DNA of 20,103 bases from a virus. The position numbers and the translations under genes were made by a program. Location of the stretch: the IMG/VR virus record IMGVR_UViG_3300006924_000281, positions 1 to 20,103 of that record; one strand, written 5' to 3'. Under the pieces are notes generated by a model. That model searched no databases and was not told where the DNA came from. It saw only the letters and a program-made list of their open reading frames with translations. The number at the start of each line of letters is the position of its first letter. Position 1 is the stretch's first letter. Positions 4,701-19,776 of the stretch are shown here, piece by piece.

Positions 4701-4984
4701 TATTTTTTCTTTGCGGCTCCGCCTTTTGCTTTCTTCATGGGACTTAAACTCATTCCCCTTTGTTTTGCGGCGCTTCGTAGTTGTGCCATAGTCATTGCAC
4801 CGCCACCAGACATCATTTTTGCAGGTTTTTTGCCGCCCGCTGCGCCACCTTTAGACATGCGGCGCTTTTTACCGCCCATAGCTCCACCTTTAGACATACG
4901 CTTCATTTTACCGCCCGCTGCGCCACCTTTAGACATGCGCTTTACTTTACCACCTGATCGGTAACCTTTCTTCTTCATTGCCAT
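4700..4984 (-). CDS. Lysine/glycine-rich repeat protein
   Basis: 94 residues, extremely basic and low in complexity. Three tandem copies of a 14-residue unit, of the form (K/R)RMSKGGAAGGK, fill residues about 15-54. A short helical segment, MTMAQLRSAAKQRGMS, precedes a lysine-rich tail. No Asp or Glu is visible, so it should bind nucleic acid or another polyanion strongly; DNA condensation in the head or ejection with the genome are possible, neither shown. It has a strong AAGGAGA ribosome site seven bases before the ATG and overlaps the next gene by one base. It is the last of four basic small genes in a row. Confidence 0.8.
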   Translation of the reverse strand: MAMKKKGYRSGGKVKRMSKGGAAGGKMKRMSKGGAMGGKKRRMSKGGAAGGKKPAKMMSGGGAMTMAQLRSAAKQRGMSLSPMKKAKGGAAKKK

Positions 4985-5724: not shown

Positions 5725-6044
5725 TAACACTTCCATCTTTTTCGAGCTTGTCTCAAACGTGAATTAGGATTTTTTGCAGCTTTTGGAAATTTTTTCATTT
5801 GTCCTGCGGACCTAGCACAAAATGATTTACGCCGTTTATCATCCTTACTTCCTTTTTTAACTTTTCCTGTAACCGCCGTTTTTAATTTTGACCCAGGGTT
5901 TTTTCTTCTATAGGCTTTAACTCCGTCTTCCGTCATTCCCGCCCCCTTTTCTGTAGGGCGGAAATTCTTTTTATTACGCTTCGGCATACTGTCGCTTTTG
6001 CGTTTCTTTTCTTTAGACGACGTTGTTTTTACCTTAGACGCCAT
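5724..6044 (-). CDS. Basic conserved phage protein (DUF6321-like)
   Basis: 106 residues, strongly basic. After a lysine-rich, probably disordered start, the conserved part reads GMTEDGVKAYRRKNPGSKLK, TAVTGKVKKGSK, RRKSFCARSAGQM and ends with NPNSRLRQARKRWKC. I recall this arrangement as a phage domain of unknown function (DUF6321, unverified). The two Cys (in SFCAR and the last residue) are part of the pattern. AAGGTGA lies five bases before the ATG. It is the first of the basic proteins after the beta-type virion genes, and its TAA overlaps the start of the 52-aa membrane protein. It may accompany DNA or form part of the capsid; neither is shown. Confidence 0.8.
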   Translation of the reverse strand: MASKVKTTSSKEKKRKSDSMPKRNKKNFRPTEKGAGMTEDGVKAYRRKNPGSKLKTAVTGKVKKGSKDDKRRKSFCARSAGQMKKFPKAAKNPNSRLRQARKRWKC

Positions 6045-6053
6045 AGGGTCACC

Positions 6054-6329
6054 TTAACTATGGAAAATAGTCAATGCGGTGACGTTAGTAGCCACTGAAA
6101 CATGAATATCGCTAGTAAACAAAATACCTTCGTCAGGGATGTTCACCGAATGAGTTTCAGATGCAGAAAAATCAATATCTAAAACTGTTGAACCACCGTT
6201 TCCGTCAGTTAAGGTAAGTCTACCCGCGCCACCGCCTGTAAGAACTTGTATCTGCCGTAAACGTGCGCGACCAACTGCTGCCGCGCCTGTTCCCGTCAGA
6301 CGTTTGCTTTTTACGTCTGAATTAGCCAT
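6054..6329 (-). CDS. Small beta-type virion protein
   Basis: 91 residues. The sequence KSKRLTGTGAAAVGRARLRQ is followed by LTGGGAGRLTLTDGNGGSTV, LDIDFSASETHSVNIPDEG and ILFTSDIHVSVATNVTALTI. Alternating hydrophobic residues and Gly/Thr turns indicate an all-beta fold. Similar proteins occur next to capsid genes in marine phages, and a decoration or minor head protein is the most likely role, inferred from position. AGAGGA lies seven bases ahead of the ATG. Unlike the next four genes it is not strongly basic. Confidence 0.8.
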   Translation of the reverse strand: MANSDVKSKRLTGTGAAAVGRARLRQIQVLTGGGAGRLTLTDGNGGSTVLDIDFSASETHSVNIPDEGILFTSDIHVSVATNVTALTIFHS

Positions 6330-17175: not shown

Positions 17176-17204
17176 TATATATCATATAGTTATATCTCGT
17201 TCAA
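17176..17204 (-). promoter_or_regulatory. Promoter-like site ahead of the terminase gene
   Basis: On the minus strand TTGAAC (17199-17204), a 17-base spacer and TATATA (17176-17181) stand about 30 bases ahead of the terminase ATG. A further TATAAT (17165-17170) and a TTGCAA (17207-17212) lie in the same AT-rich patch, so the exact boxes are uncertain. The site follows the GC-rich gap and would start the late transcript. Confidence 0.4.
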
Positions 17205-17504
17205 TTTTGCAAATGATTATTTGAGAGAAACATGGCCCATGCTCTCGTGCCACAGCGCCACGGGCCGCGAAAATTTGCGCATAAATCGCTGTTTTTGCTG
17301 CATAAAACTTGACCCGATATCGGGAGGCTCATGGGAAAAAATAATGGACATCGATGCAGTAAACGCGGCTCGCGGACCGCAAAAAAACCCAGCAGTCAAA
17401 TTGCCCGGGCATTTCGAACCTTCGACCTTGCGGCACGGTTCGCGGCTCGCGGTACGTTTGGGAGGCACGACGGACGGCGGTCCGAAGTAAGTATTAAATA
17501 CAAA
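17205..17504. other. GC-rich, palindrome-rich intergenic region, no convincing gene
   Basis: This stretch is visibly richer in G and C than its neighbours and separates the right-hand gene block from the terminase gene. It holds a 12-bp perfect palindrome CCCGATATCGGG (17313-17324), a 10-bp one TGCCCGGGCA (17402-17411), a hairpin CGGAC-GGCG-GTCCG (17471-17484) and a direct repeat CGCGGCTCGCGG (17364-17375 and 17441-17452). Short open frames exist on both strands, but the 83-codon minus one starts with GTG without a ribosome site and resembles nothing. A packaging start (pac or cos), an origin or a structured RNA are possible; its place next to terL favours packaging. This is inference. Confidence 0.5.
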
Positions 17505-17529
17505 TAAAAAGCCCGCTCGAAGGCGGGCT
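17500..17529 (-). terminator. Rho-independent terminator of the right-hand gene block
   Basis: Positions 17510-17516 and 17523-17529 form a 7-bp stem (AGCCCGC/GCGGGCT) with a six-base loop. On the minus strand it is followed by TTTTTATTTG. It lies just after the gene at 17557-17781 and should end the transcript before the GC-rich gap. Confidence 0.88.
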
Positions 17530-17556: not shown

Positions 17557-17781
17557 TTAAGGCTTGTAGTCTTCGAAGGTGTTCAAACAGCGACTATGGC
17601 GGGCATATTCGGCTAACACTTCCATAAGCCCGCTGTATTCGTTCCACATAAGAGATAGATTAGATCTATCCATTGCACCAACAGAACTATGCAACTGGTC
17701 GATAGCTCGCACCAAACTAGCCGAACGGGTCGAGGCCATGCCTTTAGCCTCGAGCGTTTCTTTAAAGGTTTTATTCGTCAT
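17557..17781 (-). CDS. Small protein, function unknown
   Basis: 74 residues, helical: TNKTFKETLEAKGMASTRSA, SLVRAIDQLHSSVGAMDRS and LMWNEYSGLMEVLAEYARHS. No motif or membrane segment is recognised. It overlaps the previous gene by 11 bases, with GGAG ten bases ahead of its ATG, so it is likely co-translated. It is the last gene before a strong terminator. I checked it as a small terminase subunit because it is the nearest gene upstream of terL, but it lacks a DNA-binding helix-turn-helix I can see. Confidence 0.7.
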   Translation of the reverse strand: MTNKTFKETLEAKGMASTRSASLVRAIDQLHSSVGAMDRSNLSLMWNEYSGLMEVLAEYARHSRCLNTFEDYKP

Positions 17782-17998
17782 CTGTTACAAACTCCGCCAT
17801 GTTACAATCAAGAGAATGCATAACACCTAACCAATCTTGAATACCCTCCGATAGATCAGAATGAAATTCATCGTGTAATTCGTTGATAACGATATCATCA
17901 CCTATGTTTTCTAACTTAGCTCGCACATCATCCAGAACGTGATACGCTTTCAAAAGTTGTTTGCTGATATCTTGTTGCGCTTCATTTAAATTTTCCAT
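17771..17998 (-). CDS. Small acidic protein, function unknown
   Basis: 75 residues with a strong excess of Asp and Glu: ENLNEAQQDISKQLLKAYHV, LDDVRAKLENIGDDIVINEL and LSEGIQDWLGVMHSLDCNM. It is probably helical and cytoplasmic. GAGG lies seven bases before the ATG, inside the shared leader TTTTTATGAGG that also precedes the genes at 18802 and 19603. Small acidic proteins of this kind in phages can be DNA mimics or host-takeover factors, but nothing specific supports this here. Confidence 0.7.
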   Translation of the reverse strand: MENLNEAQQDISKQLLKAYHVLDDVRAKLENIGDDIVINELHDEFHSDLSEGIQDWLGVMHSLDCNMAEFVTDDE

Positions 17999-18011
17999 AA
18001 TTTAACCTCAT

Positions 18012-18039
18012 AAAAAAACGGGCGGAATTGCCCGCCCGT
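18012..18039 (-). terminator. Rho-independent terminator inside the early block
   Basis: An 8-bp GC-rich stem (18018-18025 with 18032-18039, ACGGGCGG/CCGCCCGT) with a six-base loop is followed on the minus strand by seven T. It stands between the repeat module at 18042-18071 and the ribosome site of the gene at 17771-17998. A transcript started at the repeat's -10 would begin inside the first stem arm and so escape it. Confidence 0.85.
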
Positions 18040-18041
18040 CT

Positions 18042-18071
18042 CTTATCCGATATTATCGCATACTTTGCAAG
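18042..18071 (-). promoter_or_regulatory. Repeat module copy A, promoter-like
   Basis: Positions 18043-18071 are identical over 29 bases to 18845-18873. On the minus strand the module reads TTGCAA, 17 bases, GATAAG, with an inner TGCGATAAT that is also an extended -10. The spacer holds an 11-base inverted repeat, CGATAATATCG, which could be an operator. It follows the stop of the gene at 18078-18332 and precedes a hairpin and the gene at 17998. Confidence 0.5.
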
Positions 18072-18077
18072 TTTATT

Positions 18078-18332
18078 TTATTCTATCCAATCATCGGCGT
18101 GTTCTGATAGCTCTTGATTAACAAAAGCTTTTAATGCGGCGTCATCATCATAAACAGCATTTGTACACTTCGAAGGCGAAGAAAAGATATTGAACGCGCC
18201 ACAACCGTACTTTGCAAATAGCGCCGTCGCTTCCTTAAACGTTCTTTTCTTTTCCGTGTTTGGGTCGCGTAAATCATGCAATTCGTAAATGTCCGTCGGT
18301 TCGCCACAATGCGAGCAATAAATATCTGGCAT
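18078..18332 (-). CDS. Small zinc-ribbon-like protein
   Basis: 84 residues. The start PDIYCSHCGEPTDIYELHD has a CxxCGEP knuckle (Cys6, Cys9), and a second pair lies at Cys44 (KYGCGAF) and Cys56 (SKCTNA), together a plausible four-Cys zinc site. The C-terminus is acidic (VNQELSEHADDWIE). I recall short proteins of this type near the cysteine-cluster protein below on phages and plasmids, without a function. Its ATG shares a base with the stop of the gene before it (TAATG). It could bind nucleic acid or a partner protein; this is not shown. Confidence 0.8.
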   Translation of the reverse strand: MPDIYCSHCGEPTDIYELHDLRDPNTEKKRTFKEATALFAKYGCGAFNIFSSPSKCTNAVYDDDAALKAFVNQELSEHADDWIE

Positions 18333-18802
18333 TAATCGAACCTCCCAAATTTAACGTCGTTAGGCTTGCCAATAATACGCAAGGCAACAAGCCCATATTC
18401 ATAAATAAGAACTTCTAAAAACTTAAAAGAAAATTTTCCAAGCGGGTTTAAATCTGGCTCGCCGTCCGTGCCAAAAATGATGCCAAAATCGGAGGGCTTA
18501 TTTGTCATAACTGAATTACCAAAAGCGGGATATCCATACACTTCGTCCATTCTATCGGCTACCTTAGATAAAACAGAATTTTGCAAATAGTCTTTTTTTA
18601 AATCAGTAGGATTATCAAGTTTTTCTACTTCCTCAATTTCGATTTCATTATCTAAAACAGCTTTACAAAAGAAATCTGGAATAACACCGCACCATTCATT
18701 CAATTGATCGGGCCGATAATTTCCATAGTCTTTATCTTTAAGCGGGTTCAAAACCTTATTTAAAATAAAGTCGCTAGTTCTAACAGTAAATAAAGTGTTC
18801 AT
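18332..18802 (-). CDS. Phage protein, function unknown
   Basis: 156 residues. It contains NTLFTVRTSDFILNKVLNPL, WCGVIPDFFCKAVLDNEIEI, VADRMDEVYGYPAFG and KPSDFGIIFGTDGEPDLNP, with a mixed alpha/beta look and no membrane segment or catalytic motif I can name. I chose the ATG at 18802 because the longer frame's first codons (ATGAGG at 18814) are the ribosome-binding sequence itself, six bases ahead of this ATG. It lies after repeat module copy B and couples to the zinc-ribbon gene by a TAATG overlap. Confidence 0.78.
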   Translation of the reverse strand: MNTLFTVRTSDFILNKVLNPLKDKDYGNYRPDQLNEWCGVIPDFFCKAVLDNEIEIEEVEKLDNPTDLKKDYLQNSVLSKVADRMDEVYGYPAFGNSVMTNKPSDFGIIFGTDGEPDLNPLGKFSFKFLEVLIYEYGLVALRIIGKPNDVKFGRFD

Positions 18803-18843
18803 TTCATACCTCATAAAAACGTACCAAAATTAGTACAATTAAA

Positions 18844-18873
18844 GTTATCCGATATTATCGCATACTTTGCAAG
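18844..18873 (-). promoter_or_regulatory. Repeat module copy B, promoter-like
   Basis: The second exact 29-base copy (18845-18873). On the minus strand it gives TTGCAA, 17 bases, GATAAC, about 40 bases ahead of the ATG at 18802. Between it and the gene lies a weak hairpin with GTAC arms (18821-18836), then GTTTTTATGAGG. It sits right after the stop of the 240-aa gene. Confidence 0.5.
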
Positions 18874-18880
18874 CTTTTAT

Positions 18881-19603
18881 TTAATGCTCAACAATTGCGA
18901 TTGATTTTGCAAGGCTCGAACCTTTGCAAAGTTTACACGCCGTGCATTGTACACGCCGTTCCATTTCTTTTGACGCGGGGCATAAAACCTCATTTTTTTT
19001 GTCTATGTCCAAAACGTTTTTTATAACGCGAAATGTACGACGCTTGTTTTTCCAATGGTTTTTTGCTTCCGAATAACTATCGGCGCTTTGCATCGCTATA
19101 TCTGGCCTCCAAGGTTTTTGATGAGTATACGCCGTCCAAGTATCGCATCCAGATAAAAGACTATCCCATATTTCGGACGGAACGGCGGCGGGATCGCCAT
19201 ATGTTCCAATCCGAATAAAACGACCATAACCCATTTCGACGGCATCACCAATTTGATAAACTCCGCGTTTGTAAGCTTTCCATACAATCAAAACACCTTG
19301 CCCTAAGTTAACATAGCATATACGATTTTTCGCTTGTTTTCTATCTGGGTCGTTTGTTACTTCGCCGCGCATTGGGCAATTGCCACAAATAGAATAATCT
19401 TCGCCAGTTTTACTTGCTTCTAATGGGTTTTTGTCGCCGTCGCACAAAATATAAGTTTGCACGACGTGACCAGTTTTAGTGTTGCGATCCGAATAAATGG
19501 CAATAACTACAATAGGCTTTTGATCTATCAAGCTTGGGCCTTTGTAAATAATCGCCGACTTAATTTGTGTTTTAAAAACATTCTCATTTATAACATCAAG
19601 CAT
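18881..19603 (-). CDS. Cysteine-cluster phage protein, function unknown
   Basis: 240 residues. The conserved pieces are IVVIAIYSDRNTKTGHVVQT, YSICGNCPMRG (Cys73, Cys76), RICYVNLGQG (Cys96), GRFIRIGTYGDPAAVPSEIW, TFRVIKNV and, at the C-terminus, VLCPASKEMERRVQCTACKL with Cys208, Cys220, Cys223 and Cys226. This arrangement recurs on marine phages and some plasmids in my memory and has no assigned role. The Cys groups at both ends could hold an iron-sulphur cluster or zinc, bringing the ends together. GAGGG lies six bases before the ATG, behind the third repeat module. It is the largest gene of the right-hand block, which suggests a main early or middle function, perhaps in nucleic-acid handling; this is inference. 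Confidence 0.85.
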   Translation of the reverse strand: MLDVINENVFKTQIKSAIIYKGPSLIDQKPIVVIAIYSDRNTKTGHVVQTYILCDGDKNPLEASKTGEDYSICGNCPMRGEVTNDPDRKQAKNRICYVNLGQGVLIVWKAYKRGVYQIGDAVEMGYGRFIRIGTYGDPAAVPSEIWDSLLSGCDTWTAYTHQKPWRPDIAMQSADSYSEAKNHWKNKRRTFRVIKNVLDIDKKNEVLCPASKEMERRVQCTACKLCKGSSLAKSIAIVEH

Positions 19604-19615
19604 TTTTTACCCTCA

Positions 19616-19647
19616 TAAAAAAAACGGGATCAGTTCCCCAATCCCGT
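19616..19647 (-). terminator. Rho-independent terminator after the 32-aa gene
   Basis: A 7-bp stem (19624-19630 with 19641-19647, ACGGGAT/ATCCCGT) with a ten-base loop is followed on the minus strand by a run of eight T, then ATGAGGG, the ribosome site of the next gene. It has the same relation to the repeat module as at 18012-18039. Confidence 0.85.
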
Positions 19648-19675
19648 ATAATCTTATATTATCTTATAATGCAAG
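19645..19675 (-). promoter_or_regulatory. Repeat module copy C (diverged), promoter-like
   Basis: This gap shares the GCAAG end, the central ATATTATC and the following T-rich bases with copies A and B but differs elsewhere. On the minus strand it reads TTGCAT, 18 bases, TATACG (or 17 bases, TTATAC), overlapping the first arm of the terminator. It lies just beyond the 32-aa gene's stop and ahead of the 240-aa gene. Confidence 0.4.
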
Positions 19676-19677
19676 TT

Positions 19678-19776
19678 TTATTTTTTACGGCGTCGCGTTC
19701 TTTTATTAGTATGCTTTTTTAATTCGGCGTAATCTTCGCCGTATAACAACCGCCCGATAATCTCAAATATAAACAT
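19678..19776 (-). CDS. 32-aa basic micro-protein
   Basis: A short open frame with a good ribosome site (CGGAG, seven bases before the ATG) fills most of the gap between the 90-aa gene and repeat module copy C. The product reads MFIFEIIGRLLYGEDYAELK, then KHTNKRTRRRKK. A hydrophobic helix followed by a strongly basic tail suggests membrane or nucleic-acid contact. It is followed at once by the repeat module and a terminator, as a real last gene of a transcript would be. I do not know a family. Confidence 0.65.
   Translation of the reverse strand: MFIFEIIGRLLYGEDYAELKKHTNKRTRRRKK

Follow-up and report, generated by a model that had tools for sequence, protein, structure and literature searches.

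Repeated promoter-hairpin modules with a putative spacer operator in the early genes of a phage related to Pelagibacter phage HTVC027P

Introduction

Three copies of a promoter-like sequence, each standing right after a stop codon and each followed by a hairpin, lie among the small orphan genes of the viral DNA studied here (a 20-kb fragment, 20,103 nucleotides, of virus record IMGVR_UViG_3300006924_000281, hereafter the window), and they raise the question of how a promoter and an apparent terminator can share the same few bases in front of a gene. The terminase, portal and capsid proteins place the window phage near Pelagibacter phages HTVC027P and HTVC023P, the former being, by terminase (64%), its closest relative in culture. 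Composite promoter-terminators have a precedent in the promoter-early stem-loops of T4-like myoviruses (PeSLs; Arbiol et al. 2010, Comeau et al., via PMC4503421). A PeSL is a cassette between early orphan genes that joins a sigma70-type promoter and a stem-loop, the 5' arm of which lies upstream of the transcription start, so that the full stem forms only in read-through RNA. Our analysis leads us to propose, with somewhat more confidence than doubt, that each copy in the window is a composite early-gene module made up of a promoter, a spacer operator, a start-straddling terminator and a leader. The wider reading, to which we give roughly even chances, is that an uncultured marine phage family independently evolved PeSL-like self-bypassing insulators, that one ribbon-helix-helix (RHH) repressor silences all the early cassettes and its own gene, and that only a module's own transcripts pass the start-straddling terminator.

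Results and Discussion

Layout of the early block

The small orphan genes form a three-unit block between the terminase gene and the end of the fragment, and the genes of interest all lie on the minus strand. Read on that strand, each unit has the order stop codon, TTGCAW, 17 bp, A-rich -10-like hexamer, hairpin, T-run, TATGAGG and start codon, the last of these about 70 nt from the -35 element in modules A, B and C; each unit closes at the next module, and the last one at a plain terminator. The first bases of the modules, in descending minus-strand coordinates, are 19675 (C), 18873 (B) and 18071 (A), and the features are as follows.

19669..19674, minus: module C -35 element, TTGCAT
19652..19668, minus: module C putative operator TATAAGATAATATAAGA, a direct repeat, 2 nt closer to the -35 element than in A and B
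19646..19651, minus: module C -10-like element, TTATAC (17 bp from the -35) or TATACG (18 bp); predicted +1 near 19639
19638..19647, minus: module C predicted terminator, 5' arm ACGGGATTGG, across the predicted +1
19616..19633, minus: module C predicted terminator, 3' arm CTGATCCCGT (19633-19624) and T-run
18881..19603, minus: unit headed by C, a 240-aa phrog_2554 protein of unknown function
18867..18872, minus: module B -35 element, TTGCAA
18848..18864, minus: module B putative operator, identical in sequence to that of A
18844..18849, minus: module B -10-like element, GATAAC, 17 bp from the -35; predicted +1 near 18837
18815..18836, minus: module B weak hairpin, arms GTACTA/TGGTAC at 18836-18831 and 18826-18821, with a T-run; all of it past the predicted +1
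18078..18802, minus: unit behind module B, encoding two orphan proteins of 156 and 84 aa
18065..18070, minus: module A -35 element, TTGCAA, 7 nt past the stop codon of the upstream gene
18046..18062, minus: module A putative operator TATGCGATAATATCGGA, two TATNNGA half-sites with a 10-bp period, in the spacer
18042..18047, minus: module A -10-like element, GATAAG, 17 bp from the -35; predicted +1 near 18035
18032..18039, minus: module A predicted terminator, 5' arm ACGGGCGG, across the predicted +1
18012..18025, minus: module A predicted terminator, 3' arm CCGCCCGT (18025-18018) and T-run
17557..17998, minus: unit behind module A, encoding two orphan proteins of 75 and 74 aa
17510..17529, minus: predicted stand-alone terminator ending the last unit of the early block

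Apart from an inverted repeat discussed below, the anatomy described in the original prediction was confirmed: an exact 29-bp repeat, without a single mismatch, occupies 18043-18071 and 18845-18873 on the minus strand, with a diverged third copy at 19645-19675, each copy begins 3-8 nt past a stop codon, TTGCAW stands 17-18 bases from a -10-like hexamer in A, B and C, and a hairpin, a T-run and a common TTTATGAGG leader follow in all three modules. For the unit headed by B, a start codon at 18802 suits the leader better than one at 18814. The -35/17/-10 layout is conserved; the hexamers of the window are weak by the E. coli consensus and went unlisted by a simple promoter scan. Related record G002 has a near-consensus promoter bearing the operator (TTGACA-17-TATAAA, at 38528), as well as TTGACT-17-TATAAG ahead of its replication genes (at 31001). 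Promoters of host type fit what is reported of HTVC027P, which has no RNA polymerase of its own and relies on that of its host, and the early genes of which are of unknown function (PMC12753301).

A search of the early block against phage DNA gave no match. Among the related viral contigs, gene content changes at the modules, i.e., one upstream gene end and its module precede different genes in the window and in L004, L007, L009, L010 and L011. The end of a small upstream gene with a C-type module leads to phrog_2554 in the window, to another gene in L004 and to a third in L010; in most relatives module A stands behind the same upstream gene end and leads to one of several genes; and the phrog_2554 gene itself occurs behind three module types.

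A putative operator in the promoter spacer

The inverted repeat that had been taken as the shared spacer element, CGATAATATCG, is present only in A and B and is missing from C; the core common to A-C and to the relatives consists of TATNNGA repeated directly every 10 bp. A pattern for this pair of half-sites (TATNNGANNNTATNNGA) gave 24 matches in 13 related records, against 0 for a reversed control, and the search for further copies that had been suggested was thereby successful, the core occurring many times in related viral contigs; modules in these relatives were found both with and without the operator as a search criterion. The pair occurs there as a forward direct repeat, a reversed direct repeat or an inverted pair, and the spacing from -35 to -10 is constant (16-18 bp) whatever its orientation. 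Because the element flips inside a constant promoter frame, the likeliest reading of the TATNNGA pair is an operator within the promoter, to which a repressor would bind.

A further promoter, with a reversed operator and without a hairpin (TTGATH-17-TANNNT), occurs in L004 (1728-1765), L010 (5515), L023 (842), L036 (1919) and others; it overlaps the end of a nuclease-like gene, and the entire early block of the relatives apparently starts from it. At about 25.9-28.8 kb of L069/G005 there are inverted half-sites (TATGGGATCGATCCCATA); the terminator there is a separate one placed ahead of the promoter, and the hairpin near +1 lacks a T-run.

A probable terminator across the predicted start

The position of the hairpin was compared in 22 modules of the window and relatives (18 distinct 5' arms, window module B left out). 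In 22 of 22, which are kin by descent and so do not count as independent observations of the shared geometry, the 5' arm begins 27-33 nt and ends 35-43 nt from the first base of the -35 element, +1 being expected at 35; the overlap of the first arm with the predicted start, originally described at A and C, is thus upheld for these two and likewise found in all the modules examined. Arms folded with their own partners had a mean energy of -16.4 kcal/mol as against -10.6 kcal/mol for swapped partners, and 0 of 2000 permutations were as stable. RNAalifold returned no pairs for the mixed hairpin alignment, in which the arms of different length are probably misaligned. Hairpin energy drops from about -17 to about -9 kcal/mol when the RNA is made to begin at the predicted +1, and this drop, with the position of the arm across +1, suggests that the terminator can fold completely in read-through RNA but only in part in newly started RNA.

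A and C have the G+C-rich stem and following T-run expected of an intrinsic terminator; the hairpin of B, at -5.2 kcal/mol, is weak; it starts about 1 nt past the predicted +1 and would be wholly transcribed. The idea that new transcripts lack the first arm therefore holds in part: about half of the stem would be lost rather than all of it, and none at B. The shortened RNA of module A can re-form a shifted 6-bp stem (-10.6 kcal/mol, against -17.5 kcal/mol for the full stem), so that read-on of a module's own transcripts is likely but not assured, and a GGGG/CCCC remnant is retained in the shortened RNAs of many relatives. Promoter and predicted terminator stand fused in a single module at each unit, and the proposal of a compact insulator that resets transcription at every unit is supported for A and C; the hairpin of B, weak and predicted to be fully transcribed, speaks against it there. 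In an operator-blind scan of the relatives for terminators directly before a ribosome site and start codon, 27 of 31 distinct sites had the operator immediately upstream, and relatives that keep the hairpin without the repeat, which had been named as evidence against the scheme, are thus the exception.

A candidate RHH repressor

In relatives, a gene for a predicted 48-residue RHH protein sits downstream of the DNA polymerase region, and the spacer of its own promoter holds the operator. The gene was found in five of six larger relatives; as it lies outside the 20-kb fragment, its occurrence in the window phage is presumed from these. A search for relatives of the protein identified 80 loci with 37 distinct upstream regions, and each of the 37 contains the operator, with 9-10 of 10 positions matching, a level reached by 1.2% of shuffled controls. 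An AlphaFold2 model of the protein has a beta-alpha-alpha fold (E9-12, H13-26, H30-47; pLDDT 90), and its Foldseek matches, none of them at E≤0.001, were mostly to RHH proteins, with Arc, CopG, MatP and AmrZ among them. RHH_5 matched 19 of 19 aligned members at E≤0.1, the best at 4.5e-8; the member closest to the window scored 17.6 bits for RHH_5, below the Pfam cut-off of 26. No homologue of the protein was identified in a collection of cultured phages. Like the Arc, CopG and MetJ repressors, the candidate is a small beta-alpha-alpha protein with paired short half-sites, to which binding is predicted, and an operator at its own promoter; its sequence kinship to them is, however, distant.

Based on the association between gene and operator, it is likely that this protein reads the operator in the same phage family. 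The earlier suggestion that one repressor could control all three modules gains from their common operator and from a candidate the own gene of which bears it, with the correction that the element is a direct and not an inverted repeat. PF00589 integrases were detected in none of six relatives (the positive control was detected, and the records may be incomplete), which makes a repressor of the lysogeny type less likely. So far as our literature search found, the TATNNGA half-site and its regulon are new.

Proposed working and alternative explanations

In the working that we propose, a host-type (sigma70) promoter placed right behind the stop codon of the previous gene would carry, within the 17-bp spacer, two TATNNGA half-sites acting as operator for the phage RHH repressor, followed by an intrinsic terminator with its 5' arm across the predicted start and then by a Shine-Dalgarno leader. 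Polymerases arriving from upstream would copy both arms and then stop, and those initiating at the module would skip roughly half of the 5' arm and in most cases continue. Repressor, once accumulated, would cover the -35/-10 spacer of all modules simultaneously, together with its own promoter.

This working depends on where transcription begins. If the real promoter were an extended -10 (TATGCGATAAT) within the operator, the start would move upstream by about 10 nt and every message would include the whole hairpin, which would then attenuate its own unit. In most forward modules TGCGATAAT suits an extended -10; A and B are among them, and in both the -10 at 17 bp is poor. A start from the extended -10 would retain the full hairpin (-17.5 kcal/mol in A). 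However, the extended -10 is missing from C and vanishes where the operator is reversed (L010 7739 and 8695, L011 692), and these L010 and L011 sites keep TTGCA, the 17-bp spacing, a CATTAT -10 and the hairpin position; the -35-to-hairpin distance also stays fixed although the operator is shifted in C, which argues for the -35/-10 reading. We thus regard attenuation as unlikely. It is rather improbable that an ordinary terminator of the upstream gene merely stands beside an ordinary promoter of the next gene, without functional overlap: a separate terminator does lie upstream of the promoter in G005 and in parts of G003 and G004, but all 22 fused modules have the terminator past the -10 with an arm across the predicted start, and a terminator serving the upstream gene alone would more naturally stand before the promoter.

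The remaining explanations concern what the hairpin or the repeat is for. That the hairpin chiefly stabilizes the 5' end of the mRNA, rather than terminating, is brought to mind by G005, where the hairpins that follow the promoters near +1 lack a T-run, but the T-run typical of terminators is present in most modules, A and C included, and the first arm would be largely untranscribed from a module's own predicted start; we consider this very improbable. The exact switching of gene content at the modules between relatives might suggest that the repeats are kept mainly as recombination sites between early-gene cassettes. Conserved promoter spacing, operator and arm pairing nevertheless call for a regulatory explanation, and shuffling is more probably a by-product, as has been proposed for PeSLs, so that recombination as the main reason has hardly any likelihood. 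Promoters for a phage-encoded single-subunit RNA polymerase would also be conserved sites (here 29 bp) repeated beside genes, and we take TATAGGA to resemble part of the T7 promoter core. Against this, the orientation of the element and its number of copies inside the spacer vary, and there was no PF00940 match in six larger relatives, a result of little weight as the positive control went undetected too. HTVC027P has no such polymerase and uses that of its host (PMC12753301), and to this last explanation we give next to no credence.

Comparison with PeSLs and HTVC027P

PeSLs (PMC4503421) and the window modules are alike in being small cassettes of a promoter and a stem-loop at which genes are exchanged, and the presumed principle on which they work is shared. 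The geometry of 24 intergenic PeSL cassettes, measured on the sequence of RB49, differs from that described above: the start is preceded by the entire 5' arm in 24 of 24 and by the whole hairpin in 23, one has a T-run, the hairpins occupy the spacer or span the -10, and a scan of RB49 for hairpins downstream of the -10 found almost none. In the modules of the window and its relatives, by contrast, the arm straddles the predicted start (22/22, window B standing outside this count) and a T-run follows, and it is the putative operator that occupies the spacer, where the PeSL hairpin takes up the spacer or the -10. By terminase, portal and capsid the window phage belongs to an unrelated family that is not T4-like, and based on this descent we view its modules as an operator-bearing variant and not as members of the PeSLs.

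Composite promoter-terminator cassettes in unrelated phages suggest a convergent solution, one that would permit accessory early genes to be added or swapped with their neighbours undisturbed. For a widespread group of uncultured marine phages the analysis provides a candidate for the master repressor, with its operator, and the compact design (spacer operator and start-straddling terminator) could serve as a template for insulated expression units under repressor control.

HTVC027P (L099) has repeated early promoters of the form TTGACAATAGGRC-17-TAGGATARTCCTA before successive small genes at about 17.6-19.3 kb. They resemble the window in being repeated promoters (TTGACAATAGGRC-17-TAGGAT) in the corresponding region, and differ from it in having no module-type hairpins by eye and no TATNNGA pairs, nor did the search of cultured phages yield a homologue of the RHH protein; they are possibly an analogous operator system.

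Other features of the window

The phrog_2554 protein (18881-19603, minus) has relatives in 147 phage records, including those of Mycobacterium, Klebsiella, Gordonia and Roseobacter phages. Just upstream of module C, at 19679-19774 (minus), there is a small, very basic protein (MFIFEIIGRLLYGEDYAELKKHTNKRTRRRKK), the C-terminal end of which is kept just ahead of a module in L004, L010, L023, L049 and L052. A long non-coding stretch (17185-17510) separates the early block from the terminase gene; parts of it (e.g., CATTTGCAAAATTGAACGAGATATAACTATATGATATA, minus) recur in L004 near 6030-6065, and it could contain a late promoter or a packaging signal. At 4828-4954 a 39-nt tandem repeat is present in three copies within a gene, the product of which is a lysine/arginine/glycine-rich repeat protein (KKMRGGGM in relatives).
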